From NCBI RefSeq assembly GCF_004101865.1, contig NZ_CP026118.1, positions 4,081,029 to 4,145,028 of the forward strand: a stretch of DNA of 64,000 bases, in the 5' to 3' direction. The translations under genes and the position numbers were made by a program. Position 1 is the stretch's first letter. The number at the start of each line of letters is the position of its first letter. Under the pieces are notes generated by a model. That model worked only from the letters and a program-made list of their open reading frames with translations, was not told the DNA's origin and searched no databases. This document shows, piece after piece, positions 529 through 31,573 of the stretch. This stretch comes from Halobacillus litoralis. GTDB taxonomy: Bacteria; Bacillota; Bacilli; Bacillales; Halobacillaceae.

Positions 529-700
529 GACAACACTCCAATTCATGTTAATGAAAATACTAGAATGAATTCTAGTGGCCATGTATTTGGAAGTCAATAG
601 TATAGAAAGAGAGAATAATTTCCTTTGGTCATGTTGCAATCAAAGTCCGTTAATTCTTAAGAAAAGCCGCAATCAGTTACTGATTTATACACTTTTAACG

Positions 701-751
701 AAGAGAGACTTCTGACTGAATAATAATAAAAATAAGCGATAAGTCTCTCTT
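701..751. repeat. Inverted repeat, 11-bp arms
   Basis: AAGAGAGACTT at 701-711 is matched perfectly by AAGTCTCTCTT at 741-751 with a 29-base loop. It lies upstream of the yitT-like gene on the opposite strand. It could be a long stem-loop or an operator; no T-run marks it as a standard terminator. Confidence 0.5.
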
Positions 752-865
752 ATTAGATAATGAAACCGTAAATCGATACTACTATCAAAAAAAATTTTTT
801 GATCTAATAGATATAGGCTACCTTTACAGTGTTATATAAATTAATAGAAATGGCTATCATTGTTC

Positions 866-914
866 GTGCCTGACCCCCACTCTGCTAAAGCGATAATGCG
901 TGGGGGTTAGGCAC
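866..914. repeat. REP-like palindrome, copy 1
   Basis: GTGCCTGACCCCCAC (866-880) pairs with GTGGGGGTTAGGCAC (900-914), one G-T wobble, around a 19-base loop containing AAGCGATAATGC. The same loop and arms recur at 20197-20246, and a half copy is at 16639-16650. This is a dispersed intergenic family, GC-rich against its AT-rich surroundings. Confidence 0.75.
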
Positions 915-1178
915 TGTTTTATCGTGAACTACTTTTAAAAGAAATTTTTTTAAGAACAAATTTATAATATTGAGGAGTCGAAAGTAAAAACTAAATATAT
1001 TACTACCCACCGGAGAGGGCTGGCTTCCACCTGTTTTCTAAATTATTATTCTTCCATTTGTACTCCGAATCGTAAAACTCCCAGACTTTTTAAAATAGTT
1101 TTATTTAAAAAATAGAAAATCCTCCCAAAACACCCTTGATTATTCTGAAAATTCGTGGTAGTTTGAATATTGAAAGCG

Positions 1179-1206
1179 TATACAAAACTTAGTTTAATAT
1201 ACTAAA
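1179..1206 (+). promoter_or_regulatory. Possible IclR autoregulatory site
   Basis: Just upstream of the IclR gene an interrupted inverted repeat is visible, GTTTA-ATATAC-TAAAC, about 15 bases before the ATG. Such positions suit autorepression by an IclR-type regulator. No binding data can be drawn from sequence alone and the match to any known consensus is weak. Confidence 0.3.
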
Positions 1207-1221
1207 CCAAAGAGGGATAAT

Positions 1222-1977
1222 ATGGGAAATAAATATTGGGTACCTGCAATTGAAAAAGCGAACAACATCATGACAATAATTGCAAAAGAGCCAGGGAAGT
1301 TAAAGTTAATTGAAATTTCAAGAAGAAGTAATATCAATAAGAGTTCACTTTTTTCAATATTGAACACGTTAGAAGAATTAGGGTGGGTTTATAAAGAAAG
1401 TGATCAAACATACTCGTTAGGAACTAGATTAGGATTTTTTAGTGCTCAATATTTTCAACAGTTTGATTTAGTAGGTTTTTTTAATCGAGAAGCAGAAAAG
1501 GCAATGAAAAAAATAGAAGAAACTATTCAACTTTCAATTTTAGAGGGGAACGAAATTATATATATAGCAAAAAAAGAGGGGCCATCAAGAGTAAGAATTG
1601 CATCGGGACCTGGAATGAGTTTACCAGCACATGCTACCGCAATGGGGAAAGCAATGTTGTCTAAATTTTCAAAAGACGATCTAGCCGAAATGTATAAGGA
1701 AAGTGGTTTCGAACAATTAACGGATAAGACCGTAGATAATTTACATGATTTACAGAATCAAATTAACGATATGAGGGAAAAAGGTTATGTTATTGAGAAC
1801 CAAGAGTCAGTGAAAGGTTTTACCTGTATTGCGGCACCAGTGTGGAACGAGAGAAATGAAATTATAGCTGCTGTAAGTTTTACAATGCCACTTGATAATT
1901 GGGAGAAGAAAAGTGAGCTTTGTAAAAAGGAGATAATTTCCTTAGCAAAAATACTTTCGATTAATAGTCATGTGTGA
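1222..1977 (+). CDS. IclR family transcriptional regulator
   Basis: 251 residues, the normal length for the family. The N-terminal third forms the winged helix-turn-helix (residues about 10-70, with SRRSNINKSSLFSILNTLEELGW as the recognition region). The rest is the IclR effector-binding domain with the characteristic LPAHATAMGKAML segment near residue 135 and a C-terminal SVKGFTCIAAPV-type motif near 195. The start is an ATG after AGAGGGA. It precedes a TRAP transporter and acid-sugar enzymes in the same orientation, so it is the likely local regulator, probably releasing or activating in response to a pathway intermediate. The effector is unknown. Confidence 0.92.
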   Translation: MGNKYWVPAIEKANNIMTIIAKEPGKLKLIEISRRSNINKSSLFSILNTLEELGWVYKESDQTYSLGTRLGFFSAQYFQQFDLVGFFNREAEKAMKKIEETIQLSILEGNEIIYIAKKEGPSRVRIASGPGMSLPAHATAMGKAMLSKFSKDDLAEMYKESGFEQLTDKTVDNLHDLQNQINDMREKGYVIENQESVKGFTCIAAPVWNERNEIIAAVSFTMPLDNWEKKSELCKKEIISLAKILSINSHV

Positions 1978-2082
1978 AACTTGGCACCATCAGTTGAATG
2001 TAATAAATGAAATAAATGTAATTGAGGTGCCAACATTCATATATAAACTGTTGAAAAATTTAGGGGGTGATTATATAAAATT

Positions 2083-2101
2083 AAATAAAACCGTTTTATT
2101 T
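2083..2101. promoter_or_regulatory. Perfect palindrome, candidate IclR/KdgR-type operator
   Basis: AAATAAAACCGTTTTATTT is a palindrome with 9-bp arms and one central base, placed about 120 bases upstream of the TRAP binding-protein gene. Its layout resembles the A/T-flanked palindromes bound by KdgR, an IclR-family regulator of uronate catabolism. With an IclR gene next door, this is the best candidate operator for the island, by inference only. Confidence 0.5.
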
Positions 2102-2218
2102 TGAAGGCGATTGTTAGGAGTTTATGGAAAGAATTAGTTTTGGCAATCAAATAGTATTTAAGGTTAATTACACCTATAAGATTCAGAATTTTTTGATTTA
2201 AAATAAGGTTAAGGAGAG

Positions 2219-3250
2219 ATGAATGTGAAAGGATTTCTTAAGTTAAAACTAAGCTTTTTTGCAATTGTGTTACTAATATTTACTGTTGCATGCTCTTCCG
2301 AAACAGGTTCAGACAATGCGGAGGCTAAATCAGATGAAGGCACCTATACAATCAATGTTGCTTATGGTAATCAACCTGACGAGCCCATAGGTAAATTGGC
2401 TACAAAATGGAAAGAGCTTGCTGAAGAGAAAAGTGATGGCCGGTTAAAATTAAATCTTTACCCAAGTTCACAATTAGGCGCGGAGAAAGACGTTGTTGAA
2501 CAAGCCGTGTCGGGTAACAATGTCATTGTTATGGCTGGATATGATTTCTTAATGGACTATGTCCCAGATGCAGGAATCTTAACAGCACCTTACTTAGTTG
2601 AAGATTTTGATCAGTTGCTATACTTAACAGAAACTGACTGGTTTGAAGGAGTTAGAGATGATTTACGCAAACAGAATATTGAAATTGTAAATTCTAAGAC
2701 AGTTTACGGGGAACGTCACCTTTTAACAAATGAAAAGGTAACCTCACCAGAAGACCTAAAGGGAATGAAGATTCGCGTTCCGGATAATCAAATGTCTATC
2801 AAAACCTTCGATGCTATGGGAGCAGCGGCGACTCCATATCCACTAGGGGAATTATATACGGCACTTCAACAAGGTCTTGTAAATGGAGCAGAAAACCCAC
2901 TTCCAGTTCTACAGGGGGTTAAAGCACATGAGGTTTCTAAAAACCTTTCTTTAACAGGTCACCAAAAGTTTATCACCTCGTGGATTGCAGGGACTGAATT
3001 TATTAATAAGCTCCCTGATGACCTAGTTGAAATTTTAAGAGAAACGGGAAAAGAGGCTTCCAAATATGGACGAGAGGTCTTGGAAGAAGAGACTGCAGCA
3101 GTATTAGAAGAATTTGAATCGTCCGGTGTAAAACTACATGAAGTTGATCAAAAAGCATTTAAAGAAAAAGTACAAAGTGTTTATGAAGAATTTTCTGAAT
3201 GGACACCAGGGCTATATGATGAAATTCAAGAGTTGTTAAAGGACAGTTAA
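2219..3250 (+). CDS. dctP: TRAP transporter solute-binding lipoprotein, DctP family
   Basis: 343 residues. A lipoprotein signal peptide ends in the lipobox FTVAC, placing the acylated Cys at residue 25. The mature protein has the DctP fold signatures: a segment around residues 150-190 (RHLLTNEKVTSPEDLKGMKI) and the conserved LYTALQQGLVNGAENP block near 215. It captures an organic acid outside the membrane for the DctQM permease encoded next. AAGGAG lies only two to three bases before the ATG, so the in-frame GTG at 2225 could be the true start. In this context the cargo is probably a sugar acid (uronate or aldonate), inferred from the neighbours. Confidence 0.9.
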   Translation: MNVKGFLKLKLSFFAIVLLIFTVACSSETGSDNAEAKSDEGTYTINVAYGNQPDEPIGKLATKWKELAEEKSDGRLKLNLYPSSQLGAEKDVVEQAVSGNNVIVMAGYDFLMDYVPDAGILTAPYLVEDFDQLLYLTETDWFEGVRDDLRKQNIEIVNSKTVYGERHLLTNEKVTSPEDLKGMKIRVPDNQMSIKTFDAMGAAATPYPLGELYTALQQGLVNGAENPLPVLQGVKAHEVSKNLSLTGHQKFITSWIAGTEFINKLPDDLVEILRETGKEASKYGREVLEEETAAVLEEFESSGVKLHEVDQKAFKEKVQSVYEEFSEWTPGLYDEIQELLKDS

Positions 3251-3346
3251 TAGTTAATTGGTTAGTAGAGTTTTGGGGCATGTATGCTATATAGATGGTC
3301 ATTCAGCTGCTTGCCCTATAAACTCTGAGCGCGAAAGGAGTGAAAC

Positions 3347-3835
3347 TTGGTGGTCAAAAGTGGACTTAATGCAATAGATGATGTAATGGCATCACTCGCT
3401 CTTGTTGGGGTGATTCTGCTAACGGGCATAAACGTTCTGTTACGTTATATATTTAATGCACCGATTGCATGGACGATGGAGGTTGCACTTGGATTATTCA
3501 TATGGTTTGTATTTATAGGTATAAGTTCATCAATGAAGCGTAACGGTCATATAGGTGTGGATTTCTTTGTAAAAAAACTACCGAGACCCCTTTGGATTTT
3601 AAGTGAAATTATTCGGGCAGCCGCCATTTATTTTGTGCTTATTTACGTTTTTATTTATCTTGGATCCAAATTTACCATGATGGCCACAGGTAAATTAACA
3701 CCAATTTTGGGTTTGAGTTATCAACTAATTGATATAGCCGTTCCAATCGGTGGGGCAATAACTGCTATTCACTTTACGAGAAATTTTATTTTATCTTTAC
3801 GAACCGAGTTTAGAAACGAAGGAGGGGAAGATTAG
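3347..3835 (+). CDS. dctQ: TRAP transporter small permease, DctQ family
   Basis: 162 residues with four predicted membrane helices, the standard DctQ architecture. The motifs RYIFNAPIAWTMEVAL (after helix 1) and the charged GHIGVDFFVKKLP loop are family hallmarks. Translation begins at TTG (3347) or the adjacent GTG (3350) after AAAGGAG. One base separates its stop from dctM, so the two are translated together. It forms the membrane complex with DctM, which uses an ion gradient to import the substrate delivered by DctP. Confidence 0.9.
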   Translation: MVVKSGLNAIDDVMASLALVGVILLTGINVLLRYIFNAPIAWTMEVALGLFIWFVFIGISSSMKRNGHIGVDFFVKKLPRPLWILSEIIRAAAIYFVLIYVFIYLGSKFTMMATGKLTPILGLSYQLIDIAVPIGGAITAIHFTRNFILSLRTEFRNEGGED

Positions 3836-3836
3836 A

Positions 3837-5117
3837 ATGGCTTTAGCTGTCGCATTAGTTCTCTTACTAGGGTTATTCTTACTAAATGTTCCAATCGCCT
3901 TCGGTTTAATTATAAGTTCGGTTGCTTACGTTTTATTTAATGATGGTTATTCATCCGAAATTTTAGTACAAAGAATGATTGGTGGACTAGAGTCAGTTCC
4001 TTTGCTTGCTATAATTTTCTTTATTACAGCAGGTATTTTAATGAACTATACAGGGATAACTAGCAGAATGCTTCGGTTTGCGCAAATGATTACAAAGCAC
4101 CTCCCAGGGTCACTAGCGCAAGTGAACGTGGTCCTTAGTACGCTAATGGGAGGATTATCTGGTTCGAATATCGCAGATGCAGCTATGCAATCAAAAATTT
4201 TAGTTCCTGAAATGGAAAAGAGAGGCTATAGTCGTGCTTTTTCGACGGCCTTAACGGCAGGTACATCTTTAATTACACCAATTATCCCACCAGGAATTGC
4301 TTTGATCTTATATGGTTTTATTGGAAATGTTTCGATAGGAAGTATGTTCTTAGCAGGAGTTATTCCTGGAGCCATACTCTGTATAAGCTTCATGATTTAC
4401 GTTCATTTTTATGCGAAAAAACATAAAATAGAAACGGAGAAACAAGAAAAAACAACAATGAAACAATTTCTAATAGTATCAAAAGATGCTTTTCTCGCCA
4501 TATTATTGCCGTTAATTATTATTGGTGGCATACGTTTTGGGATTTTTAGTGCCACTGAAGCTGGTGCAATTGCGGTTTTTTATGCACTATTTTTAGGATT
4601 AATTGTCTATCGAGAAATGAAACTCTCACAGCTAATAAAAGCTATCATAGAAACAGTACATACTGCTGCTTCGATATTAATTATTATCGCAGCAGGCTCG
4701 GCATTTGCTTGGGTGTTAACGTTGGAACGAGTACCACAGAGAATGACTATGTTTATGACTGAGTATGTATCTACACCAATGGCATTTTTACTTGTTGTTC
4801 TTGTATTCTTATTGATAATTGGAATGTTTATCGAAGGGAATGTAAGCATTATTATATTAACCCCTTTGTTTATGCCAATGCTCCACCAATTTGGAATAGA
4901 CCCAGTACATTTCGGGATTTTCTTTATTGTTTGTATAAGTATTGGAACCTTAACACCGCCACTAGGAACGGTTATGTATACAACTTGCTCAATAACTAAT
5001 ACAAACGTCGAAAAATTTGTAGTAGCTAGTCTACCATTTCTAATTTTACTAGTTTTAGTTGCATTGTTGTTAGCATTTATTCCTGGTTTAACCATGTGGA
5101 TGCCGAATACTTTCTAA
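3837..5117 (+). CDS. dctM: TRAP transporter large permease, DctM family
   Basis: 426 residues, about 12 membrane helices. Family motifs include LLAIIFFITAGILM, the GGLSGSNIADAAMQ segment near residue 105 and TSLITPIIPPGIALI near 140. This is the transport channel of the tripartite system, driven by a cation gradient (Na+ in characterised members, which would suit a salt-tolerant host). It starts two bases after dctQ and is followed after 12 bases by an SDR gene, so it is part of one transcript with the catabolic enzymes. Confidence 0.92.
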   Translation: MALAVALVLLLGLFLLNVPIAFGLIISSVAYVLFNDGYSSEILVQRMIGGLESVPLLAIIFFITAGILMNYTGITSRMLRFAQMITKHLPGSLAQVNVVLSTLMGGLSGSNIADAAMQSKILVPEMEKRGYSRAFSTALTAGTSLITPIIPPGIALILYGFIGNVSIGSMFLAGVIPGAILCISFMIYVHFYAKKHKIETEKQEKTTMKQFLIVSKDAFLAILLPLIIIGGIRFGIFSATEAGAIAVFYALFLGLIVYREMKLSQLIKAIIETVHTAASILIIIAAGSAFAWVLTLERVPQRMTMFMTEYVSTPMAFLLVVLVFLLIIGMFIEGNVSIIILTPLFMPMLHQFGIDPVHFGIFFIVCISIGTLTPPLGTVMYTTCSITNTNVEKFVVASLPFLILLVLVALLLAFIPGLTMWMPNTF

Positions 5118-5129
5118 AAAGGAGAAACC

Positions 5130-5894
5130 ATGAGATTAAAAGATAAAGTTGTAATTATAACTGGTGCAGGATCTGGAATTGGAAAAGAAACAGCCGTATT
5201 GTTCGCAAATGAAGGTGCCACCATTATCGTAAATGATCTAAATGAAAAGGCTGGTCAAAAAACAATAGACGAAATTCTTTCCAATAATGGTAAAGGGCTT
5301 TTTGTCCAGGGGGATGTCACGAGAATGGAAGATGTAAAGCATTTAGTTGACAAGGTCATAAAAAAGTTTGGAAGAATCGATATACTTTTCAATAACGCTG
5401 GAGTTAGTGGAGTTGGTCAGCTTCACGAAATAGAACCGGAAACATGGGAACAAGTATTTAAGGTAAACGTATATGGGGTATTCCTAGTTTCAAAATACGT
5501 CATTCCCCACATGATAAAACAGCGGTCGGGGACTATTATAAATATGTCATCTTGTATTGCAGAAATAGGATTGGCTGATCGTTCTTCCTATGCAGCAACA
5601 AAAGGTGCAGTGTTGTCATTAACAAAATCTATGCAAGTTGATTACGCTAAATATAATTTACGTATAAATGCCTTAATGCCAGGAACGATTTACACTCCCT
5701 TCGTGGAGGATTATATATCAAATTCCCCGGATCCTGAAGCCACAATTTCATCTATTAAAAAACGTCAGTTAGGCGAGGAGCTTGGAAAACCAATAGACGT
5801 CGCTTATGCAGCGTTATATTTAGCGTCAGATGAATCAAAGTTCATGATGGGGTCCCCTATGTATATCGATGGGGGGGTAGTAAATGGAAAATAG
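5130..5894 (+). CDS. SDR family oxidoreductase, candidate sugar-acid dehydrogenase
   Basis: 254 residues, classical short-chain dehydrogenase. The NAD(P) site GAGSGIG is at residues 12-18, NNAG at 88-91, and the catalytic Ser about 140, Tyr154 and Lys158 (YAATK) are all present. Start ATG follows AAAGGAG. It sits 12 bases after dctM in the same operon. In non-phosphorylative sugar-acid routes an SDR oxidises 2-keto-3-deoxy acids to 2,4-diketo acids, which an FAH-family enzyme then cleaves; an intact FAH gene lies at 9632. That assignment is inferred. The fold alone does not define the substrate; a gluconate 5-dehydrogenase-like role is an alternative. Confidence 0.85.
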   Translation: MRLKDKVVIITGAGSGIGKETAVLFANEGATIIVNDLNEKAGQKTIDEILSNNGKGLFVQGDVTRMEDVKHLVDKVIKKFGRIDILFNNAGVSGVGQLHEIEPETWEQVFKVNVYGVFLVSKYVIPHMIKQRSGTIINMSSCIAEIGLADRSSYAATKGAVLSLTKSMQVDYAKYNLRINALMPGTIYTPFVEDYISNSPDPEATISSIKKRQLGEELGKPIDVAYAALYLASDESKFMMGSPMYIDGGVVNGK

Positions 5895-5977
5895 GAGGTT
5901 GATAAATATTTGACTTACAATTTCGTTGCCTTGATTTTTTTACAGTTAATTAGGGATTTATCGTATTAAATTACTAG

Positions 5978-6349
5978 ATTATTTACATTAAAAAACTAGA
6001 ACCAACTGTATTTGAAAATGTATCCCCCAATATGCGTATTGCACTGGAAGAAATATTTGGACCAGTTCTTGCTCTGATGAAGGTAGATACTTTAGAGGAT
6101 GCACTTAATATGGCAAATGATTCAAAGTTTGGATTAAGCGCATCCATATTCACAACAAATATAAGTAATATGCTTTCATTTATTGAAGATATGGATGCGG
6201 GAATGGTTCGTATAAACGCTGAGTGTGCTGGTGTAGAACTACAAGCACCGTTTGGTGGAATGAAACAATCGAGTTCACACTCCAAAGAGCGAGATAGAAC
6301 CGCTATTGAATTTTACACGTCTATAAAAACAGTATTTGTAAAGGGATAA
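5978..6349 (+). pseudogene. Aldehyde dehydrogenase C-terminal remnant
   Basis: About 123 codons encode only the last quarter of an aldehyde dehydrogenase: EEIFGPVL, the FGLSASIFT segment and PFGGMKQSS near the end are recognisable. The frame is closed by a stop at 5975, and the region holding the NAD site and catalytic Cys is gone, so it cannot be active. An internal ATG (6032) has no ribosome binding site. Full members are about 480 residues. It lies between the SDR and the UxaA-like genes and so marks a deletion in the island. Family members of this type oxidise semialdehydes such as alpha-ketoglutarate semialdehyde in sugar-acid pathways. Confidence 0.85.
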
Positions 6350-6382
6350 GCACATATAAGCTTAGTAAGTTTGATTAATTAG

Positions 6383-6414
6383 TAATATGATAGTAATAAA
6401 TTACTATCATATTA
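6383..6414. repeat. AT-rich perfect hairpin, 15-bp arms
   Basis: TAATATGATAGTAAT is followed after two bases by its exact reverse complement. It sits between the aldehyde dehydrogenase remnant and the first UxaA-like gene. No T-run follows on the plus strand (A-rich instead), so it is not a textbook terminator; it may be an operator, mRNA-processing hairpin or scar. Confidence 0.55.
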
Positions 6415-6500
6415 TAAAAAAATAATTTCTTTTCAAGGAATCTATTACTGTTAGTACTAGCCTTAACTAATGGTTAATTAACACTGGAGGCGCTTACAAT

Positions 6501-7625
6501 ATGAATTATTCTTATGAGGGATTTAAAAGGGATGATGGAACAGCGGGAACAAGAAATTATGTTGGTATTGTTTCATCCGTTATATGTTCTAGCGCTGTGG
6601 TACGTGAAATTTCTGAAAAGGTAAGTGGGACTATTCCAATTGTGCATGCAAATGGCTGTGCCCAACTTGGTGATGATTTAAAGTTAACAAAAAATATGCT
6701 TGTGGGTATGTCGGCGAACCCGAATATTCACTCTGCATTACTTGTGGGATTAGGTTGTGAAACAAATCAAGTAAGTGGGTTATTGAAGCAAATTCCTAAA
6801 ACAAAACCAATAAAAGGAATTGGAATTCAACAACTTGCTGGAGGCACTAATACAGTCCAAAAAGGGATATCGATTGCCGAAAAGTGGGCGGAAGAGGCAA
6901 TGGAACAAGAAAGAACCAAACTGTCCTTATCATCGTTAACGGTAGGGGTCCTAAATGTTGATGCGGATCACGATTCATTAACAGAAACTGGTCCGGTAAT
7001 AGGGAATGTTGTTAATAGATTAGTTGAAAACGATGCAAACGTGATTATGGGACTTTCTAAAACTCTAGCACCTGCTGGGCTTTTATTATCCGAACGAATG
7101 GTTGATATAACCGAAAAGGAAAAAATGATTAGTACTAGTAAGGGATTAAATCGTCTGCGTTGGAAAGATCCAACTATAGAAGATACTAATGGTAATGAAT
7201 ATACGGAAGAACAAACAAATCTGGCGGTACTAGAATCAGAGATGACAGGATCAGTTCCTATAAACAGTATCTTAGATTATGGTGAAATTCCAAAAGAGAA
7301 TGGTCTTCATTTAATGAAGATTTCTAGTAATATTGTGGAATCGCTATCAAAAATGGCTTCAAGTGGTTGTAATATCGTGTTGGTCGTAAGTAAGAGGGGA
7401 GTATTGACGGGGTCGATTGCTTTGCCTTGTATGACAGTAACACCCCAAAGTAATAAAGGCTCATTTGACGAACTCATTGATTACACAATAAAAGGAAGTA
7501 ATGTTCACCAAGAGAGTGAAAGAATTATAGAGGAATTGTTAGAGGTGTGTTCAGGAAAACAAACAGAAGTTGAAATGTTAGAGTTGGGAGAGTTTTCCAT
7601 ACCTCACTTAGGAACTACCTATTAA
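6501..7625 (+). CDS. UxaA-family dehydratase-like subunit, divergent
   Basis: 374 residues matching the C-terminal catalytic region of altronate/galactarate dehydratases (UxaA/GarD) without the SAF domain. It keeps the family opening FKRDDGTAGTRNYVGI, the VHANGCAQLG motif and LLVGLGCETNQ. It has lost others: the LECGGSD motif is replaced by a VLNVDADHD-like stretch, and the second-half PGYDVESVVGL region is changed. It therefore looks like a partner or regulatory subunit of the complete paralogue at 7946 or an enzyme for another substrate. The start uses GGAGG eleven bases before ATG. It is followed in 12 bases by a separate SAF-domain gene. Family known, role inferred. Confidence 0.8.
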   Translation: MNYSYEGFKRDDGTAGTRNYVGIVSSVICSSAVVREISEKVSGTIPIVHANGCAQLGDDLKLTKNMLVGMSANPNIHSALLVGLGCETNQVSGLLKQIPKTKPIKGIGIQQLAGGTNTVQKGISIAEKWAEEAMEQERTKLSLSSLTVGVLNVDADHDSLTETGPVIGNVVNRLVENDANVIMGLSKTLAPAGLLLSERMVDITEKEKMISTSKGLNRLRWKDPTIEDTNGNEYTEEQTNLAVLESEMTGSVPINSILDYGEIPKENGLHLMKISSNIVESLSKMASSGCNIVLVVSKRGVLTGSIALPCMTVTPQSNKGSFDELIDYTIKGSNVHQESERIIEELLEVCSGKQTEVEMLELGEFSIPHLGTTY

Positions 7626-7637
7626 GGAGCGATACTG

Positions 7638-7943
7638 ATGGGGCAAAAAGTCAATGCTATTAAATTAGATGAAAAAGATAATGTTGCAGTTGCGCTTGAA
7701 ACTTTAAAAGTTGGAGAAACTTTATCTATTAAAGATGGGATAGAAGAAATCACCGTGTTGAAAAAGATAGCTTACGGGCACAAAGTAGCGATTTCCTCAA
7801 TTCCTAATGATGGTAAAGTTATCAAATATGGGGAGTGCATGGGAATTGCAACGATGGATATTGCAATTGGTGATCATGTGCATGTACTTAATGTCCGCGG
7901 CTTAACCGAGGAAGATAAAAGTTTTCAAAAGGAGGTTTATTAA
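7638..7943 (+). CDS. SAF-domain subunit of UxaA-type dehydratase
   Basis: 101 residues forming a stand-alone SAF domain. Signatures are DNVAVALETLKVGE near the N-terminus, KKIAYGHKVAI in the middle and KYGECMGIATMDIAIGDHVHV toward the end, as in the N-terminus of UxaA and in the small subunit SuyA of sulfolactate sulfo-lyase. In fused enzymes this domain precedes the catalytic region; here it is separate and sits between two catalytic-type genes, so it probably associates with one or both. It is tightly spaced on both sides (12 and 2 bases). Confidence 0.85.
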   Translation: MGQKVNAIKLDEKDNVAVALETLKVGETLSIKDGIEEITVLKKIAYGHKVAISSIPNDGKVIKYGECMGIATMDIAIGDHVHVLNVRGLTEEDKSFQKEVY

Positions 7944-7945
7944 CG

Positions 7946-9103
7946 TTGAGAACATTTGAGGGTTACCGTAGAGCAAATGGAAGCATCGGGGTTAGAAATC
8001 ATATTATTGTTATTAATACAGTTGGTGAATTGGCTGGGCTTACCAACAAGTTGGCTGGTCTTGTTCCAGGTGTTATTCCAGTTGTTCACCAAGCTGGACA
8101 ATCCCAATACTCCGAAGACAGTGAACAAACAATTAAAACGTTGGAAGGAACAGCAGGACACGCAAATGTTAGTGCTGCGTTATTTTTAGGGATGGGATCA
8201 AAAGACCCTGCTGAAGGAATTGTAGAAACGTTAAAAAAGAATGGTCATCATGTTCATTCCATTATATTTGATAAAGATAAATCTATAACTGAATGTTTGA
8301 AAGATGGAAAATCCTGGCTTGAAAATGCAATGAAGAGAAGTAAGGAAGAAAAAACAGAGAAGGCTGATATCTCTGAATTAATAATTGGACTTGAGTGTGG
8401 TGGCTCGGATGCATGGTCGGGAATAACTGCCAATCCTTCGATAGGAGCCCTTTCTGATTTAATTGTAGAGGATGGTGGCACCAGTATTTTGGCTGAAACA
8501 ACTGAAGCAGTGGGTGCGGAACATATCTTGGCAAATCGAGCAGTTAATCAAGAAGTAAGTAACAGATTTTTGGAAATTGTGAAAAGGTATGAACAAAGGG
8601 CAAAAGCTGTGGGAGAAGATATTAAAGCTGCAAATCCTTCACCCGGTAACAAAACAGGTGGTTTAACTACACTGGAGGAAAAGTCTCTTGGATGTATTAA
8701 AAAGGGTGGTAATTCTACATTAATGGAAGTAATTGATTATGCCCATAAGCCAAGAGAAAAAGGATTTATATTTATGGATACACCAGGCTATGATGTGGAA
8801 TCTGTAGTGGGACTGGTGGCCGGCGGAGCACAAATTGTCTTATTTTCTACCGGTAAAGGTTCGCCCACAGGTTCTCCAATTGCTCCAGTTATAAAAATTG
8901 GGACGAATCCCAAATTATATGAAAACATGCCCGAACATATCGATGTCAATGCTGGAAAGATAATTGATCAAAATTACACGATTGAGCAAATTGGTGAAGA
9001 GATCTATACAAAAATTTTACAAGTTGCCAATGGGGAAAGTACGGCTTCCGAAAAGTATAAAAACCACGAATTTAGTATATGGCGGTTAGCTGAAACACAG
9101 TAG
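7946..9103 (+). CDS. UxaA-family dehydratase large subunit (altronate dehydratase-like)
   Basis: 385 residues corresponding to the full catalytic region of UxaA/GarD-type enzymes. All diagnostic motifs are present: FEGYRRANGSIGVRN at the start, GLECGGSDAWSGITANP near residue 150, MDTPGYDVESVVGL near 275 and FSTGKGSPTGSPIAPVIK near 300. Such enzymes remove water from altronate or related hexonates to give 2-keto-3-deoxy acids, using a divalent metal. The start is TTG ten bases after AAAGGAGG. With the SAF protein upstream it forms a split altronate dehydratase like the SuyA/SuyB arrangement. The exact substrate is not determined by sequence. Confidence 0.85.
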   Translation: MRTFEGYRRANGSIGVRNHIIVINTVGELAGLTNKLAGLVPGVIPVVHQAGQSQYSEDSEQTIKTLEGTAGHANVSAALFLGMGSKDPAEGIVETLKKNGHHVHSIIFDKDKSITECLKDGKSWLENAMKRSKEEKTEKADISELIIGLECGGSDAWSGITANPSIGALSDLIVEDGGTSILAETTEAVGAEHILANRAVNQEVSNRFLEIVKRYEQRAKAVGEDIKAANPSPGNKTGGLTTLEEKSLGCIKKGGNSTLMEVIDYAHKPREKGFIFMDTPGYDVESVVGLVAGGAQIVLFSTGKGSPTGSPIAPVIKIGTNPKLYENMPEHIDVNAGKIIDQNYTIEQIGEEIYTKILQVANGESTASEKYKNHEFSIWRLAETQ

Positions 9104-9143
9104 CCCAGGAATTATCAAAAGGAAATTATAGGGAGGATTTTAA

Positions 9144-9578
9144 TTGAAGATTATTCGTTTCTAAAATAATAAAAGCCAACTCTAGGTGTTTTCATCACTC
9201 AACAGCACTTTTACCCTTTACCTTACTCTGATTTTATGGAGTTAGTAAATGATGCAGAAAACAAGGAATGCACACCTTCCATGTTAGTTCAGTAATTAAT
9301 CGATGATTATGCACCTACAGAGGAATTTTTATATGATGAATTAAATCTATTTACTCCAGTTGCAGCGCCTGAAGTATGGGCTTCGGGAGTAACTTATTTC
9401 AAGGGTCGTCAAGCGAGATTTTGACGGAACAGTTTTATTAACGGGCACGCCTATTGTACCGCCAAATAATTTCACACTCCAAGAGGGAGATCGTATCGAA
9501 ATTGAAATTCCGGAAATCGGCGTGTTAGCTAACCCTGTTAAAGAATTAATTTTAAAGGAAAGTCATGTGATCAATTAA
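9144..9578 (+). pseudogene. FAH-family hydrolase/dehydratase remnant
   Basis: A decayed gene. After GGGAGG a TTG start opens, but in-frame TAA and TAG occur within the first 15 codons, another TAA follows, and a large central deletion joins an APEVWASGVTYF segment (near 9370) directly to a C-terminal part with LLTGTPIVPPNNF (near 9440-9475). The pieces match FAH-fold enzymes of the 2-keto-3-deoxy-arabinonate dehydratase type; the metal-binding ExE...D region is lost. It is 54 bases before an intact FAH gene of a different subtype, so the island once carried two. Confidence 0.85.
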
Positions 9579-9631
9579 TCGTCTCAACAATTAATAGTGT
9601 GAAAAATAGTAGAGTTTTGGAGGTAAATGCT

Positions 9632-10525
9632 ATGAAATTAGTTACAATTTTGAAAAATGATCGTCCCTCACTAGGTGTTAAAGTTGAAGAAGGAGTAATA
9701 GATATTGCAGCAGCATTATCTATCACTCCTATGCAAAATATACCCACAGATGTAATGGATTTAATTAATGGAGGAGATGAAACTTTATCTTTGTTAAATA
9801 GTTATATTAGTAACCTTGATATTAGTTTGGATTCTCCTTATATACTTAATGAAAAAGAAGTGGAATGGGGGCCTTCTGTCACTGATCCAGGCAAGATAAT
9901 ATGTATTGGCTTAAATTACCGAAAGCATGCTGAGGAAACAAATGCAGATTATCCTGAATCACCAATACTATTTAACAAATTCAATAACACATTGACTGGA
10001 AATTCATGTAATATTACAGTACCTAAAGAAACAGACCAGTTAGACTATGAAGTGGAATTAGGAATTGTTATTGGAAAATCTGCAAAGTATATTTCAAAAG
10101 AAGGAGCCTTGGATTATGTCTTTGGATATTGCACGGCAAACGATCTATCAGCAAGAGATTTACAATTTAAAACAAATCAGTGGTTACTAGGTAAGACGTG
10201 TGATGGTTTTAGTCCGGTAGGGCCATATTTAGTCACAGCCGATGAAGTAAGCGATCCAAATAACCTATCGCTAAAAACAACAGTTAATGGAGAATTACGT
10301 CAAAACTCAAATACATCAGATATGATATTCTACTGTGATGAAATCATCAGTTATATTTCACAATATATGACTCTTAATCCTGGAGATATTATTTTAACTG
10401 GTACACCAGAAGGGGTTGTTCTTGGATTGCCTGAGAAAGAACGTGCGTATTTGCAGCCGGGTGATCAAGTTACAGTTGAGATTGAAAAGTTGGGTAAATT
10501 AACCAATACATTTGTGTCAGAATAA
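9632..10525 (+). CDS. Fumarylacetoacetate hydrolase family protein
   Basis: 297 residues starting at ATG 9632, chosen over GTG 9599 because TTGGAGG lies eight bases upstream. The C-terminal FAH fold begins near residue 85 (KIICIGLNYRKHAEE). The metal ligands are visible as the Glu pair in DYEVELGIVIG and the Asp in ANDLSARDLQ. TGTPEGV and a C-terminal PGDQVTVEIEKLG complete the signature. Members hydrolyse C-C bonds of 2,4-diketo acids or isomerise/decarboxylate catechol-pathway acids. Among TRAP, UxaA and UxaB genes the best guess is cleavage of a 2,4-diketo-3-deoxy sugar acid to pyruvate plus a hydroxy acid. This is inference; aromatic degradation partners are absent. Confidence 0.88.
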   Translation: MKLVTILKNDRPSLGVKVEEGVIDIAAALSITPMQNIPTDVMDLINGGDETLSLLNSYISNLDISLDSPYILNEKEVEWGPSVTDPGKIICIGLNYRKHAEETNADYPESPILFNKFNNTLTGNSCNITVPKETDQLDYEVELGIVIGKSAKYISKEGALDYVFGYCTANDLSARDLQFKTNQWLLGKTCDGFSPVGPYLVTADEVSDPNNLSLKTTVNGELRQNSNTSDMIFYCDEIISYISQYMTLNPGDIILTGTPEGVVLGLPEKERAYLQPGDQVTVEIEKLGKLTNTFVSE

Positions 10526-10595
10526 ATGATATCTAACTAGAAAAAATATCCATGAAACCTATAGTATTAAAATGGTTAATAAACTAACGGAAACA

Positions 10596-10628
10596 ATTAA
10601 TGAAATCACTTGTTTTCGTTTCATTAAT
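10596..10628. promoter_or_regulatory. Inverted repeat upstream of uxaB-like gene
   Basis: ATTAATGAAA (10596-10605) and TTTCATTAAT (10619-10628) form perfect 10-bp arms around 13 bases. The TGAAA...TTTCA arms resemble KdgR-type operators, but spacing is wider. It could regulate the uxaB-like gene 30 bases downstream or act as an RNA stem. Confidence 0.4.
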
Positions 10629-10658
10629 TTAATATATCCAAATATGGGGTTGTAACAA

Positions 10659-12146
10659 ATGACGAGAAAATTATCATCTTTAAAAACAGAAATGTATAAA
10701 AAGCTAGTTCAGGAAAATGCTGATTATCCAGAAAGAGTAATTCAAATTGGTGATGGTAATTTCATTAGAGGTTTTATTGACTGGATGATTTACGAGATGA
10801 ATCAAAAGAGTAATTTTGCAGGGAAGGTGGCTTCAATTCAAGCAACTCCAAGAGGCAAAACCGTTCCAAAACTTAACCGTCAAAATGAACTTTTCACATT
10901 AATATTACGTGGTATAGAAAATGGGAAGATAATTAATAAAAAACATGTTATCAATTCTATCAATAAAGCAATTAACCCTTATAAGAATTGGTCTGACGTG
11001 TTGAAAATTACAGAGCAACCAGAAATTGAATTTCTTTTCTCGAATACTACTGAAGCTGGTATTCGCTATGAAAAAGAGGATTTCTTGGAAGATGTATCCC
11101 CATTATCTTTTCCTGGTAAAGTTGCCGCACTTCTTTATCATCGATATGTTTATTTTAATGGAGAAAAAACTAAAGGGTTGATTGTTATACCATGTGAACT
11201 TATTGAAAACAATGGGGAGGAACTAAAAAGGATTTGTTTAAAAATAATTGAGGATTGGAATCTACCTAAATCCTTCGTGCAATGGATTAATGAAACATGT
11301 GTGTTTTGTAATACACTTGTTGACCGGATTGTGCCTGGTTATCCGAAAGAAGAAGACCAGCAGATATTTAACCATCTTGGATATAGTGATGAGTTGTTAA
11401 CAGTAGCGGAACCTTATCATTTATTCGTTATTGAAGGACCTTCATCTGTTGAAGAAAAACTCCCGTTTAAGCAAGCAGGCTTGAATGTTCACTTTGATAA
11501 TATTTCCGCATATAGAGAATTGAAAATTAAGTTACTGAATGGACCTCATACTATGCTTGCAGTAATTGGGATATTAAGTGAAATTGAAACTGTTCGTGAG
11601 TGTGTGGAAGATTCGTTAATTTTTCCTTTTATTAGTAATACTGTAGAGGAAGAAATAGTTACTACGCTACCTTCAAGCGAGAAAGAAATAGCAAAAACCT
11701 ACATTAAAGAAACATTCGATAGATTCGCTAATCCTTTTTTAAATCATAGATTGATTGATATAAGTTTAAATAGTTATGCAAAATTTAAAACACGAATATG
11801 GCCAAGCATATATGAATATCGGATCAAATTTGGGGATAATCCCAAACGATTAACGTTTGTCTTTGCATCATTACTTTATTTTTTCAAAGATGTGCAAGAA
11901 ATTCACTCACACAAAATAAAAGATGATACCAACGTAATTAACAAGTTCCACCAGTTTTATAATGAATTTGACAATTCAAAAGACTCTCTAGTTGCGTTTA
12001 TCAAGAATTTGATTCAAGTTGACTTCTTAGAGAATAATAAGGACTTAGGTAATCTGTATGAAGACGTGGCAGAACACTTTATACGTATTGACAGAGAGGG
12101 GATTACATCAGCAATTTTAAAGTTAGAAAGGGATGGTGACCTATGA
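10659..12146 (+). CDS. uxaB: Mannitol dehydrogenase family, tagaturonate reductase-like
   Basis: 495 residues, close to the size of UxaB. It has the NAD-binding VIQIGDGNFIRGF segment (residues 27-39) and the active-site KLLNGPHT block (about 291-298), with the C-terminal helical domain of the mannitol dehydrogenase superfamily. UxaB interconverts D-tagaturonate and D-altronate with NADH; fructuronate reductase (UxuB) is the main alternative. Altronate would feed the UxaA-type dehydratase encoded upstream. The stop overlaps the next gene by four bases (ATGA), showing translational coupling to the alcohol dehydrogenase. Confidence 0.85.
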   Translation: MTRKLSSLKTEMYKKLVQENADYPERVIQIGDGNFIRGFIDWMIYEMNQKSNFAGKVASIQATPRGKTVPKLNRQNELFTLILRGIENGKIINKKHVINSINKAINPYKNWSDVLKITEQPEIEFLFSNTTEAGIRYEKEDFLEDVSPLSFPGKVAALLYHRYVYFNGEKTKGLIVIPCELIENNGEELKRICLKIIEDWNLPKSFVQWINETCVFCNTLVDRIVPGYPKEEDQQIFNHLGYSDELLTVAEPYHLFVIEGPSSVEEKLPFKQAGLNVHFDNISAYRELKIKLLNGPHTMLAVIGILSEIETVRECVEDSLIFPFISNTVEEEIVTTLPSSEKEIAKTYIKETFDRFANPFLNHRLIDISLNSYAKFKTRIWPSIYEYRIKFGDNPKRLTFVFASLLYFFKDVQEIHSHKIKDDTNVINKFHQFYNEFDNSKDSLVAFIKNLIQVDFLENNKDLGNLYEDVAEHFIRIDREGITSAILKLERDGDL

Positions 12147-13150
12147 AATCAATAGTCTGTATAGAACCAGGGAATATGAGTGTAGCGAATAAAAGAACCC
12201 CCATTGAAATTGGAGAGGATGATGTTTTATTAGCGATAAAAAGGATAGGTGTTTGTGGAACTGACATACATGCATTCAAAGGAAATCAACCATTTTTCAC
12301 ATATCCCCGAATACTCGGACATGAAATTTCCGGTATTGTTGATAAGGTAGGTAAAGGAGTAGGAGATATTAATATTGGGGATACAGTAGTTGTTATACCT
12401 TATCTACATTGCGGTAAATGTGATGCATGTAGATATGGGAAAACAAATTGTTGTGCAAATATGAAAGTGTTAGGTGTACACACTGACGGTGGAATGGAGA
12501 AATATGTAACAGTGCCTTCCAGTCACGTGATACCGGTAAATGAATTAACATTAGATGACGCGGCAATTGTAGAACCACTTAGTATTGGAGCTCATGCTGT
12601 ACGCAGAGCACAAATTCAGAGTGATGATACGGTTTTAGTTATTGGGACAGGACCAATTGGATTAGGGGTTGCCCGCTTTGCAAAGCTACAAGGGGCAAAA
12701 ACAGTCGTAATGGATTTAAATGAAGAACGTTTAAATTTTTGTCAAAAGTGGGCTGAAAGTGATGTAGCTATAAATGGCTCTGAAAATGTCTTGCAACATT
12801 TGTTAGATACTGGTGATGGCTCATTACCAACAGTCGTTTTTGATGCAACTGGTAATAAACATTCAATGATGGAATCCTTTAATTATGTAGGTCATGGTGG
12901 GAAGCTCGTTTTAGTAGGTTTGGTAAAAGATGATATCAGTTTCTTTAATCCCGATTTTCATTCTAAGGAACTAACACTACTCGGAAGTCGAAACGCAACG
13001 AAACAGGACTTTAATTACGTAATTAATTGTTTGTCTAATGATATGATTAATTCATCTTACATTACGAATAAAATTAAGTTTGATGATACTGTTGCATATT
13101 TTAAGAAAGGTAACTTTCAAACAAATAAAACATTAATATTGCTAGACTAG
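12143..13150 (+). CDS. Zinc-dependent alcohol dehydrogenase, LgoD/RspB-like
   Basis: 335 residues, medium-chain dehydrogenase. Catalytic zinc ligands Cys38 (GVCGTD) and His60-Glu61 (GHE), four structural zinc cysteines (90, 93, 96, 104) and the Rossmann motif GTGPIGLG near 170 are all present. It resembles L-galactonate 5-dehydrogenase (LgoD/YjjN), which makes D-tagaturonate. That product is exactly the substrate of the UxaB-like enzyme with which it overlaps by four bases, so a galactonate to tagaturonate to altronate sequence is plausible. L-gulonate/fructuronate or another polyol acid cannot be excluded. It is the last gene of the island. Confidence 0.87.
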   Translation: MKSIVCIEPGNMSVANKRTPIEIGEDDVLLAIKRIGVCGTDIHAFKGNQPFFTYPRILGHEISGIVDKVGKGVGDINIGDTVVVIPYLHCGKCDACRYGKTNCCANMKVLGVHTDGGMEKYVTVPSSHVIPVNELTLDDAAIVEPLSIGAHAVRRAQIQSDDTVLVIGTGPIGLGVARFAKLQGAKTVVMDLNEERLNFCQKWAESDVAINGSENVLQHLLDTGDGSLPTVVFDATGNKHSMMESFNYVGHGGKLVLVGLVKDDISFFNPDFHSKELTLLGSRNATKQDFNYVINCLSNDMINSSYITNKIKFDDTVAYFKKGNFQTNKTLILLD

Positions 13151-13326
13151 GTGATAATCGAAAGTCGGGTACCGGAGGGAAGGGAATATAGAACTCCTTG
13201 CTTTTCTACACAAGACGATCTGATAAGAGATGTATTAACGTTCAAAAAGTGTATAATTGGTTCGTCTTTTGTAAGGAAGTACATCGCCAGGTATCCATTC
13301 CAGCCGAGTACGTAACCGCTATCTCA

Positions 13327-13590
13327 GCATGCCAAAACTCTGGTGGATAGATGATCATACATTGTGAAACTCTTCCACATTCCCCAACCGTTTTTCGGTC
13401 TTAGAGACCATTCGTCTAGCTCGGCCTTTCTGGAGCAACTATTGTCCCCATTCGCTTTACGGTACTTCTTCAGATTCAATTTTTCTGGGGTGGTTTGCTC
13501 GTTTGTGAATTCTAGGCACCCATCTGTTACGCAGAAGAAGTCATCCTCTGTTATCCGGAAGTGACTTTTCCTTGCGAAAGTTACTAATGT
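13327..13590 (-). pseudogene. Unrecognised open stretch, possible gene fragment
   Basis: The reverse strand is open for 88 codons between stops, with no ATG, GTG or TTG in a sensible position and no ribosome binding site. The composition is protein-like (balanced charges, Trp, aromatic residues; segments such as EDDFFCVTDGCLEF and NGWGMWKSFTMYDH). The plus strand also has a 66-codon frame with a Ser/Phe-rich product. The segment is more GC-rich than its surroundings. It may be the tail of a lost gene or part of a structured RNA; I cannot assign a family. Confidence 0.3.
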
Positions 13591-13833
13591 TCAGTGCTTA
13601 GCTCACCAGTGTCAATCTGATTAAAAAGAGAATATATAAATGCTCTGATTTACTATTAGATAATGGGTCAGAATTTAGTTGTTTTTACTCCAATTTAATT
13701 TATTGAGATAGTATTCTATCCTTGAAAAGTTTATTTTATGGGATTAAATACTCCAATATAATGGTGCGTATCATTTCCACACCAACAGCCTTCTAAGTTG
13801 CAGATCGTTTCGCTGCTGGTTTGAGGTAGTATT

Positions 13834-13863
13834 TCAGACTGGTTATTGTCTGACTTTTTTATT
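13834..13863 (+). terminator. Hairpin with T-run
   Basis: TCAGAC and GTCTGA enclose an 8-base loop and are followed by TTTTTT. It lies 680 bases after the island's last gene, so what it terminates is unclear; it may end an unannotated transcript. Confidence 0.5.
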
Positions 13864-14031
13864 ATTATTACTGATATCTAAATTAAACTCGTAATAATAG
13901 AGTAAAGCTGTAAACCGATTATATTGAGGCTTTTTATATCTTATTCTTTAGTATCTATTAAATACTGTGAATGGGCGACAGGATTTAAGGCATTCTTTAC
14001 ACTTTCTCCTTGCTCCCTAGAGCTACCTAAC

Positions 14032-30700: not shown

Positions 30701-31573
30701 TTGAAAATACTTAATTACGGTTCATTGAATATTGATAAAGTCTATCGTGTTCCGCATTTTGTCCGAGAAGGTGAGACACTTTCATCGCTTAATTACAGCG
30801 AATATTGTGGAGGAAAAGGTTTGAATCAATCGATTGCTTTATCCAGGGCCGGGGCAGACGTCTACCACGCAGGAAAAATCGGGCCCGATGGCGCTTTTTT
30901 ATTAACGGAATTACAGAAGAATGGTGTACATACAGAATTTATTGAAGGGGATGGGTCAGTCACTGGACATGCCATCATCCAAGTTACAGATACTGGTGAA
31001 AACAGCATTCTACTATTCGGAGGAGCGAACAAAGAGATTGGCCATCATCACATTGACCACGTTTTATCACGATTTGAAGCAGGAGATTTGCTCGTTTTGC
31101 AAAACGAAATCAATGACTTGGATATCATCATAGAAAAAGGGTATAAAAAAGGAATGTTCATTGCCCTGAATCCTTCTCCAATGACCGAGCCACTGTTACA
31201 GTTGGATTTGTCCAAAATCACTTACCTTATTGTGAACGAAGTGGAAGGGGAGAGATTGACCGGCCATAGGGATCCTGAGAAAATATTGGCTTCTTTCCAT
31301 GGGGAGTTTCCGCAGCTGAAGGTTGTATTGACACTAGGTGCGCAAGGAGTCATTTATCAAAGTGAAATTGAAACGGTAAAGCAGAAAAGCTTTCAAGTGG
31401 ATGTCATCGATACGACAGCAGCCGGGGATACCTTTCTCGGTTACTTCTTAAGTGGCATCTTTAATGATATGAAAACAGTAAATGCTCTCCGCATAGCATC
31501 AAAAGCCGCGAGTATTGCAGTCTCACGTGAGGGCGCAGCTAGTTCGATCCCTCATTTGTATGAAGTTGAGTGA
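30701..31573 (+). CDS. PfkB-family carbohydrate kinase, ribokinase-like
   Basis: 290 residues, starting at TTG after GGGGGAG. The N-terminal NIDKVYRVPHFVREGET and GGKGLNQSIALSRAG motifs, and the C-terminal catalytic DTTAAGDTFLGYF (Asp base), define a PfkB kinase. Length matches ribokinase (about 290-305). The substrate could be ribose, another pentose or a nucleoside; no sugar transporter is next to it. Divergent from cadC. Confidence 0.87.
   Translation: MKILNYGSLNIDKVYRVPHFVREGETLSSLNYSEYCGGKGLNQSIALSRAGADVYHAGKIGPDGAFLLTELQKNGVHTEFIEGDGSVTGHAIIQVTDTGENSILLFGGANKEIGHHHIDHVLSRFEAGDLLVLQNEINDLDIIIEKGYKKGMFIALNPSPMTEPLLQLDLSKITYLIVNEVEGERLTGHRDPEKILASFHGEFPQLKVVLTLGAQGVIYQSEIETVKQKSFQVDVIDTTAAGDTFLGYFLSGIFNDMKTVNALRIASKAASIAVSREGAASSIPHLYEVE

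Follow-up and report, generated by a model that had tools for sequence, protein, structure and literature searches.

The island at positions 1222-13150 of the window (the whole 64,000-nucleotide stretch of DNA that was analysed) encodes a UxaA/GarD-type dehydratase in three genes, a small SAF-domain subunit and two large paralogs that are reciprocally eroded: GDAH1 retains three of the four family-conserved cysteines together with the second domain, and GDAH2 the fourth cysteine together with the C-domain. Judged from sequence, this erosion is the real oddity of the island, overlooked by the earlier sequence-only reading, and the enzyme probably works only as a heteromer whose active site is shared between subunits. 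We read the surrounding genes, with reasonable confidence, as an imported catabolic locus for L-fuconate, L-galactonate and D-arabinonate, in which this dehydratase is accompanied by a separable LgoD/UxaB arm. The pathway is a further example of an already described kind of locus; what is new is the split of the dehydratase.

Gene content of the island

The open reading frame list and the Pfam and NCBIfam searches confirmed the gene content and coordinates previously claimed for this region, to which two overlooked pseudogene stumps are added. The idea that the two intergenic gaps are empty spacers was rejected, as they hold these stumps. The 'split UxaA' described before is indeed split, but really comprises three genes, one encoding a SAF subunit and the others two distinct large subunits.

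1222..1977, + strand: IclR-family regulator (Pfam IclR_C, 137 bits)
2219..3250, + strand: TRAP solute-binding protein DctP (Pfam DctP)
3347..3835, + strand: DctQ, TRAP small membrane subunit (open reading frame; same place kept in L009-L013)
3837..5117, + strand: DctM, TRAP large membrane subunit (open reading frame; 86-96% identity in L009-L013)
5130..5894, + strand: SDR, probable 2-keto-3-deoxy-acid 4-dehydrogenase (PDB match 4DQX, residue placement)
5996..6349, + strand: alpha-ketoglutarate-semialdehyde dehydrogenase (KGSADH) C-terminal stump, pseudogene (corresponds to residues 373-489 in L013, whose gene is intact and encodes 489 aa)
6501..7625, + strand: GDAH1, UxaA/GarD-type large subunit (second domain and Cys29/53/86 retained; C-domain motifs gone)
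7638..7943, + strand: SAF-domain small dehydratase subunit (Pfam SAF, 31.4 bits)
7946..9103, + strand: GDAH2, UxaA/GarD-type large subunit (C-domain and Cys151 retained; three second-domain cysteines gone)
9155..9575, + strand: KdaD-type 2-keto-3-deoxy-pentonate dehydratase stump, pseudogene (in-frame stops plus a 473-bp deletion)
9632(9599)..10525, + strand: FAH-fold hydrolase, probable 2,4-diketo-3-deoxy acid hydrolase (NCBIfam, PDB, NYRKHAEE motif)
10659..12146, + strand: UxaB-type tagaturonate reductase (NCBIfam NF002969, 560 bits against a cut-off of 359)
12143..13150, + strand: LgoD-like Zn-dependent dehydrogenase (333 positions aligned with E. coli LgoD, 42% of them identical)

The IclR-family regulator missed every cut-off in the NCBIfam search, and the top NCBIfam model of the Zn dehydrogenase, PRK10083, scored 224 bits, under its cut-off of 376. 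Promoter-like and terminator-like sites were uninformative (45 against 53 expected and 9 against 7.9 expected, respectively).

A dehydratase divided between two large paralogs

Canonical large subunits of the family carry all four cysteines in one chain (41 of 41 alignment rows), whereas the island distributes them three to one. The GDAH2-type cysteine pattern recurs in all 15 pairs compared (11 from Bacillota and 4 from haloarchaea) and the GDAH1-type pattern in 14 of them, the exception being haloarchaeal L046, where the GDAH1-type protein has a cysteine in the fourth-cysteine column, without the CGGSD motif. The partition extends to whole domains: of the columns invariant in canonical subunits, GDAH1 retains 92% in the second domain and 38% in the C-domain, and GDAH2 60% and 91%, the corresponding figures for the haloarchaeal pair being 92/40% and 66/93%. 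The two paralogs also co-occur: of 397 genomes sampled from the order, 5 carry GDAH1, and these 5 are also the ones with GDAH2. In both halves of each paralog, dN/dS is 0.05-0.24. Given this reciprocal erosion, the two large subunits most likely make up the active site together; it would take three of its iron-site cysteines from GDAH1 and the fourth, with the C-domain motifs, from GDAH2. We thus infer a heteromer with a site in trans, and for such UxaA-family dehydratases at large the balance tips slightly towards obligate heteromers whose iron-containing active site is built in trans from two half-eroded paralogs.

Alternatively, the paralogs may have no common site, with GDAH2 and the SAF subunit catalytic alone and GDAH1 a regulatory or structural remnant. 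GDAH2 is the better match to the family (GD_AH_C Pfam score 345 bits, against 75 for GDAH1) and evolves more slowly, and SuyAB is described, in the available text, as not having the conserved cysteines (Watanabe et al., 2019; PMC6336799). Moreover, two genomes of the family (L096 and L097) hold a SuyAB-like SAF gene beside one large subunit with only the fourth cysteine, no GDAH1 partner being found within the 18 kb examined; since SuyB-like proteins lose cysteines without a partner, such loss alone does not require one. However, SuyB-like rows are eroded in both domains (70/68% of the canonical-invariant columns), unlike GDAH2, and the losses in GDAH2 are of second-domain residues that GDAH1 retains, a domain-wise reciprocity seen in two lineages. 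Together with the co-occurrence of the paralogs and the constraint on GDAH1, this makes a site confined to GDAH2 unlikely. Membership of the island enzyme in SuyAB was itself rejected, as it has two large subunits that jointly hold all four cysteines.

Compared with UxaA/GarD dehydratases, the island enzyme has the same domains (SAF, GD_AH_second and GD_AH_C), but in three chains, with the conserved motifs divided between two large paralogs. A separate SAF subunit is also found in the two-gene split UxaA of a Priestia plasmid (L047), in SuyAB and, by description, in Campylobacter cj0482-cj0483, a hypothesised L-fuconate dehydratase (PMC12566272); each of these has one large subunit, which in the Priestia enzyme contains all four cysteines. 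A literature search for split or three-part UxaA enzymes yielded none beyond those in PMC6336799; its coverage of subscription papers was thin, and absence from print is unproven.

The order of the paired genes is opposite in Bacillota and haloarchaea. A midpoint-rooted tree of 74 rows grouped the Bacillota and haloarchaeal GDAH1 proteins on long branches, a grouping that is not trusted; in a tree of 42 rows without GDAH1 the two GDAH2 groups are separate, and a single GDAH2 clade is not rejected (p-AU 0.18), so that the erosion may have arisen once or twice. If the partition is indeed shared by both groups, it would point to a single ancient split transferred between domains or else to splitting that took place twice independently.

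Structural work on the UxaA/GarD family, whose members are iron enzymes, is sparse, and one distinct solved relative was found (6u7l); AlphaFold predictions for the two large subunits, built from five-row alignments, were too poor to use (pLDDT 41 and 35). Reciprocal loss between paralogs would mark the residues of one site and show that it can form between chains, and ordinary UxaA/GarD enzymes would then be predicted to build their site between neighbouring chains. As a caution for annotation, triplets labelled 'UxaA family hydrolase' may be one enzyme.

A probable sugar-acid pathway with a separable arm

We infer the substrates and the order of reactions as follows. The TRAP transporter would import a sugar acid with the C2-C4 configuration shared by D-arabinonate, L-fuconate, L-galactonate and D-altronate, the GDAH1-SAF-GDAH2 dehydratase would convert it to the 2-keto-3-deoxy acid, the SDR would oxidise C4 to give the 2,4-diketo acid, and the FAH enzyme would cleave this to pyruvate and lactate, glycerate or glycolate. 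The nearest solved chains to DctP in the PDB comparison are 4ovt and 4o8m, whose ligands we take to be L-fuconate and L-galactonate. The scanned island proteins included no member of a sugar dehydrogenase or lactonase family, so the island would serve free acids.

The non-phosphorylative ending, through a 2,4-diketo acid to pyruvate, had been proposed before and appears to be supported by the SDR residues and 4DQX match and by the FAH model and motif. 4DQX is the second PDB match of the SDR overall and the best single-domain, full-length one, and was placed by a 2024 paper beside the 'type 2' L-KDF 4-dehydrogenases. Arg151, Thr186 and an Arg-Gln pair of the SDR align with Arg148, Thr183 and Arg214-Gln215 of L-KDF 4-dehydrogenase, in a placement made by judgement, in which the third ligand is Tyr or Phe (type 2 being R-T-Y-R). 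The solved L-KDF 4-dehydrogenases match the SDR only at about 1e-40 and are not among its nearest structures, and the SDR reached no NCBIfam equivalog cut-off. The top NCBIfam model of the FAH hydrolase is the diketo-rhamnonate hydrolase (239 bits, missing the cut-off of 500); its PDB ranking is 1gtt (HpcE-type), 8sky and then 8gsr (diketo-rhamnonate hydrolase), and its NYRKHAEE motif contains His-x-x-Glu.

An alternative ancestral ending, in which KdaD and KGSADH would lead to alpha-ketoglutarate (Route II), is decayed here, both genes being stumps, with about 1,130 bp of KGSADH gone relative to the closest relative. Both are intact in the clusters of L009, L010, L011 and L013, where FAH1 is of the KdaD type (PDB 2q18 at 8e-70, next match 1e-15); L012 also has an intact KGSADH, and its contig stops inside GDAH1. 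A second, intact KGSADH and KdaD pair lies elsewhere in the same genome and may cover the lost branch, so that the island would capture an imported pathway while it is being pared down.

The sequence-only reading had placed all the enzymes in a single chain, from L-galactonate to tagaturonate (LgoD), altronate (UxaB), KDG (island dehydratase), the diketo acid (SDR) and finally pyruvate and glycerate (FAH). All five enzyme types are intact on one strand, here and in L010, and a homologous D-arabinonate dehydratase of the UxaA family acts weakly on D-altronate, as on L-fuconate and L-galactonate (PMC6336799). That characterised relative, however, prefers D-arabinonate to D-altronate by about 6,700-fold, and the ancestral partners KdaD and KGSADH fit C5 acids. 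Furthermore, the core is intact in relatives in which uxaB and lgoD are absent (L009 and L011) or uxaB is broken (L013), which argues against one obligatory chain. The absence of KDG kinase and KDPG aldolase, also claimed, holds for the island but not for the genome: none of the 10 PfkB and 3 KDPG-aldolase matches in a whole-genome search falls in the island, and the sole PfkB of the window (30701-31573) is ribokinase-like, but a uxaB-uxaC-uxaA-kdgA-kdgK operon, which could process KDG, lies at C1:1.570-1.576 Mb, and PfkB and aldolase genes are neighbours again at C1:2.912 Mb. Genome-wide absence of kdgK/kdgA was accordingly rejected, and the KdgK/KdgA pair that, if co-induced, was to count against the chain is present, but in other operons. 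The single chain is therefore improbable; LgoD and UxaB would act as a side arm that is separable from the core and converts L-galactonate to D-altronate; either the chromosomal UxaA-KdgK-KdgA operon or the island dehydratase could then complete the breakdown.

Such an arrangement has a precedent in the L-fucose/L-fuconate/L-galactonate loci of Halomonas and Chromohalobacter, for which dual L-fuconate/L-galactonate use was proposed (Leyn et al., 2017; PMC5507952). As far as the available text goes, these also combine lgoD, uxaB, a UxaA-family gene, a COG1028 SDR, a COG0179 FAH gene and a TRAP transporter, and are read as parallel L-fuconate and L-galactonate arms with a common transporter, so the supposed 'unusual hybrid' of routes is not unprecedented. 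In contrast to those loci, the island belongs to Bacillota, has a three-gene, reciprocally eroded dehydratase and has relatives whose clusters include KdaD and KGSADH. The non-phosphorylative D-arabinose routes II and III of Herbaspirillum and Paraburkholderia likewise comprise a UxaA/GarD-family dehydratase, a FAH-fold KDP dehydratase, an SDR 4-dehydrogenase and a FAH hydrolase (Watanabe et al., 2019; PMC6336799). Their D-arabinonate dehydratase, unlike that of the island, is a single chain with all four conserved cysteines, and the KDP dehydratases of these routes reportedly bear little relation to the archaeal one, in contrast to the clearly KdaD-like enzyme of the island's relatives.

In other genomes the GDAH1-SAF-GDAH2 triple adjoins DapA-type, KDPG-aldolase, LarA or IlvD genes, and with neighbours so variable its substrate may vary. 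An aldarate of the galactarate/glucarate type, rather than an aldonate, would accord with the DapA-type genes beside the triple in L049 and L050, with the inclusion of GarD in the GD_AH family and with the use of KGSADH in aldarate routes (PMC6336799). For this island it is very improbable: no DapA-type protein was recognised among its open reading frames or by Pfam, KdaD and the 4-dehydrogenase/FAH pair act on 2-keto-3-deoxy aldonates, and a DapA and KGSADH locus sits elsewhere in the genome.

Probable origin by import and state of selection

Of 22 genomes from the genus, only this one has a close GDAH1 homologue, and the near relative G004 lacks the island at the same site. The GC content is 35.6% over 619-14031, against 43.0% downstream; that of the upstream 618 bases is also lowish (39.0%). 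On genus distribution, empty site and GC content, the island appears to be an imported catabolic locus.

Recent import, together with the two pseudogenes among 13 loci, would also suit decaying cargo that encodes no working pathway. This is decidedly improbable, since the other eleven open reading frames are open and the seven genes compared with relatives (SDR, GDAH1, SAF, GDAH2, FAH, UxaB and the Zn dehydrogenase) are under purifying selection, with dN/dS of 0.07 to 0.33.

Division of conserved residues between two dehydratase subunits

Proteins of the UxaA/GarD family combine a SAF domain with a second domain and a C-domain. In the window, this dehydratase is encoded by three genes in the order GDAH1-SAF-GDAH2, and the two large subunits, GDAH1 and GDAH2, share about 25% identity. 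In E. coli UxaA numbering, GDAH1 retains Cys132, 166 and 199 and is without Cys264 (NVDAD in place of ECGGSD), the NPSPGN motif and SLG; in GDAH2, Cys132, 166 and 199 are gone, and Cys264, NPSPGN and SLG are retained. By their spacing, Cys132, 166, 199 and 264 would correspond to the four cysteines (134, 173, 208 and 276) that PMC6336799 describes as conserved throughout the family except in sulfolactate sulfo-lyase.

Fifteen complete pairs were compared, comprising 11 from Bacillota (the window and loci L009, L010, L011, L013 and L049-L054) and four from haloarchaeal plasmids (L043-L046), the latter drawn from 12 haloarchaeal records that each matched at two places, among 30 matches listed of 264. 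The haloarchaeal gene order is GDAH2-SAF-GDAH1. The GDAH2 cysteine pattern is present in all 15 pairs and that of GDAH1 in 14, the exception being L046, which has a cysteine in the Cys264 column and no CGGSD motif. All 41 canonical rows (a non-random set, found by GDAH1 searches or added as controls) have cysteine at all four positions.

A set of 83 columns, each at least 90% conserved among the canonical rows, shows the same division. GDAH1 keeps 92% of these in the second domain and 38% in the C-domain, against 60% and 91% for GDAH2; the haloarchaeal values are 92% and 40% (GDAH1-type) and 66% and 93% (GDAH2-type). Columns kept by a single partner divide 7:0 (GDAH1-type to GDAH2-type) in the second domain and 3:36 in the C-domain (Fisher p 2e-6), and 7:1 and 2:36 in the haloarchaea (p 5e-6), where both p values serve as a guide since columns are not independent. 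Within a sample of 397 genomes from the order, matches to GDAH1 and to GDAH2 fall in an identical set of 5. Both subunits are constrained, as illustrated by the dN/dS values in the two parts of GDAH1 (0.10-0.19 and 0.19-0.22) and of GDAH2 (0.10-0.24 and 0.05-0.06). If both are needed and neither holds the full set of residues, the active site would be completed across the two chains.

However, two genomes of the window's family (loci L096 and L097) count against a shared site. Each carries a SAF gene and a single large subunit in which the first three cysteines are absent and the fourth is kept, with no GDAH1 partner within 18 kb, such that this loss alone is tolerable in an enzyme with one large subunit. 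From the lost cysteines and the neighbouring genes we take these loci to be probably SuyAB-like; SuyB-like rows of this type are eroded in both domains (70% and 68% of columns kept in the second and C-domains, respectively). Loci L030 and L031, probably also SuyAB-like, likewise have SAF and a single large subunit without the first three cysteines, and in all four an LDH2-like dehydrogenase gene (identified by eye) adjoins. As far as the searched literature shows, the GDAH1-SAF-GDAH2 triple is a previously undescribed form of UxaA/GarD dehydratase.

The neighbours of the triple differ between genomes. A conserved protein of ~315 residues recurs beside it in L049-L053; in L051 and L052, the two tested, it matches only Peptidase_U32, and weakly. 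LarA-type (lactate racemase family) genes, possibly encoding sugar-acid epimerases, lie near it at L049:5229-6539 and L051:683-1951, and an IlvD/EDD-type dehydratase gene adjoins it at L053:12722-14965. On the haloarchaeal plasmids it is accompanied by DapA-type, enolase-type or FAH genes, which suggests varied substrates.

Gene remains and probable recent import of the island

The sugar-acid island recognised in the sequence-only reading (window 1222-13150) is borne out, its ends coinciding exactly with ORFs, and its genes all lie on the + strand. Two stretches unremarked in that reading are gene remains:

5996-6349, + strand: stump of an alpha-ketoglutarate-semialdehyde dehydrogenase (KGSADH) gene, matching residues 373-489 of the intact 489-residue protein of L013, with about 1,130 bp gone relative to that copy
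9155-9575, + strand: stump of a gene like that of 2-keto-3-deoxy-D-arabinonate dehydratase (KdaD), the remnant of a 302-residue FAH-fold protein, interrupted by stops and lacking 473 bp through a deletion

The intact KGSADH of L013 (Alkalihalobacillus sp. YIM B00296) scores 887 bits against the NCBIfam GucD model (cut-off 770). The intact L013 copy of the FAH-fold protein matches archaeal KdaD (PDB 2q18) at 8e-70, the runner-up being at 1e-15, and reached no NCBIfam model at 1e-30.

Five relative loci (L009-L013) were obtained from one scan of genome contigs. The order TRAP-SDR-KGSADH-GDAH1-SAF-GDAH2-KdaD-FAH is common to L009 (Lentibacillus populi), L010 (Terrihalobacillus insolitus), L011 (Oceanobacillus sp.) and L013, and in L012 (L. 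kapialis) the contig edge falls inside GDAH1. L009, L010, L012 and L013 each have a recognisable IclR gene; none was recognised in L011.

Among 44 genomes from the family to which the window belongs, 3 have a close GDAH1 match (E < 1e-100), one being the window genome and the others coming from other genera; within its own genus the figure is 1 of 22. Within a phylum sample of 398 genomes the GDAH1 type is found in the window genome only, the remaining 18 matches at 1e-45 being canonical. The near relative G004 has the flanking genes (91% DNA identity) at the same chromosomal site, but between them lie some 3 kb of unrelated genes in place of the island. The GC content is 35.6% in window 619-14031, compared with 43.0% downstream and 39.0% in the 618 bases upstream. 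Given this distribution, the other genes at the G004 site and the low GC content, the island is probably recent cargo.

The ~3 kb in G004 opposite window 619-14031 holds flavodoxin-, DoxX- and dioxygenase-like genes (by eye). Window 13230-13645 has no long ORF and is single-copy in the genome; its counterpart with 73% identity, L013:1318-1735, flanks the cluster on the opposite side. A glycolate-oxidase-like FAD gene at 15265-16536 (- strand) encodes 423 residues, versus 464 in G004 (L094), and its C-terminus looks cut off.

Probable sugar-acid pathway and further gene copies in the genome

Watanabe et al. (2019; PMC6336799) showed that a D-arabinonate dehydratase of the UxaA family also acts, more weakly, on D-altronate, L-fuconate and L-galactonate, all four acids sharing their C2-C4 configuration, and described 2-keto-3-deoxypentonate dehydratases of FAH type (Route II) and an SDR and FAH pair yielding pyruvate and glycolate or lactate (Route III). 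A 2024 paper (PMC11199699) defines SDR ligand residues and sets PDB 4DQX beside 'type 2' L-KDF 4-dehydrogenases. For the window SDR, 4DQX is the second PDB match overall and the best among single-domain ones; solved L-KDF 4-dehydrogenases rank far lower, at about 1e-40. By our placement, its Arg151, Thr186 and an Arg-Gln lie at distances from the catalytic Tyr154 that match the L-KDF 4-dehydrogenase ligands. For the FAH enzyme, the top curated model is diketo-rhamnonate hydrolase, at a score under its cut-off, and the top PDB match is of HpcE type.

The island, whose substrates we infer, fits loci with lgoD, uxaA, uxaB, COG1028, COG0179 and a TRAP operon that Leyn et al. (2017; PMC5507952) read as co-located L-fuconate and L-galactonate pathways, and its pathway is a further example of a kind already described. 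The single chain LgoD-UxaB-UxaA-SDR-FAH proposed earlier is unneeded, and it is weakened by relatives in which LgoD or UxaB is missing or broken: neither uxaB nor lgoD was found in 21 kb of L009 and L011, and in L013 lgoD is intact and uxaB broken. In L010, uxaB-lgoD follow the cluster.

The accompanying remark that KDG kinase and KDPG aldolase are absent holds for the island only, which contains none of the 10 PfkB and 3 KDPG-aldolase matches of the host genome; one of each lies in a uxaB-uxaC-uxaA-kdgA-kdgK operon at 1.570-1.576 Mb of the chromosome (C1). Its UxaA is 61% identical to that of E. coli, its aldolase scores 182 bits with the eda model (cut-off 156), and its PfkB protein has KDG kinase as best model at 190 bits, below the cut-off of 400. 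Among sugar genes at C1:3,166,098-3,168,485 lie an intact KdaD-like gene (59%) and, after it, a KGSADH (65%), and at 0.64 Mb a further KGSADH accompanies a DapA-like gene; these copies could explain why those of the island were dispensable.
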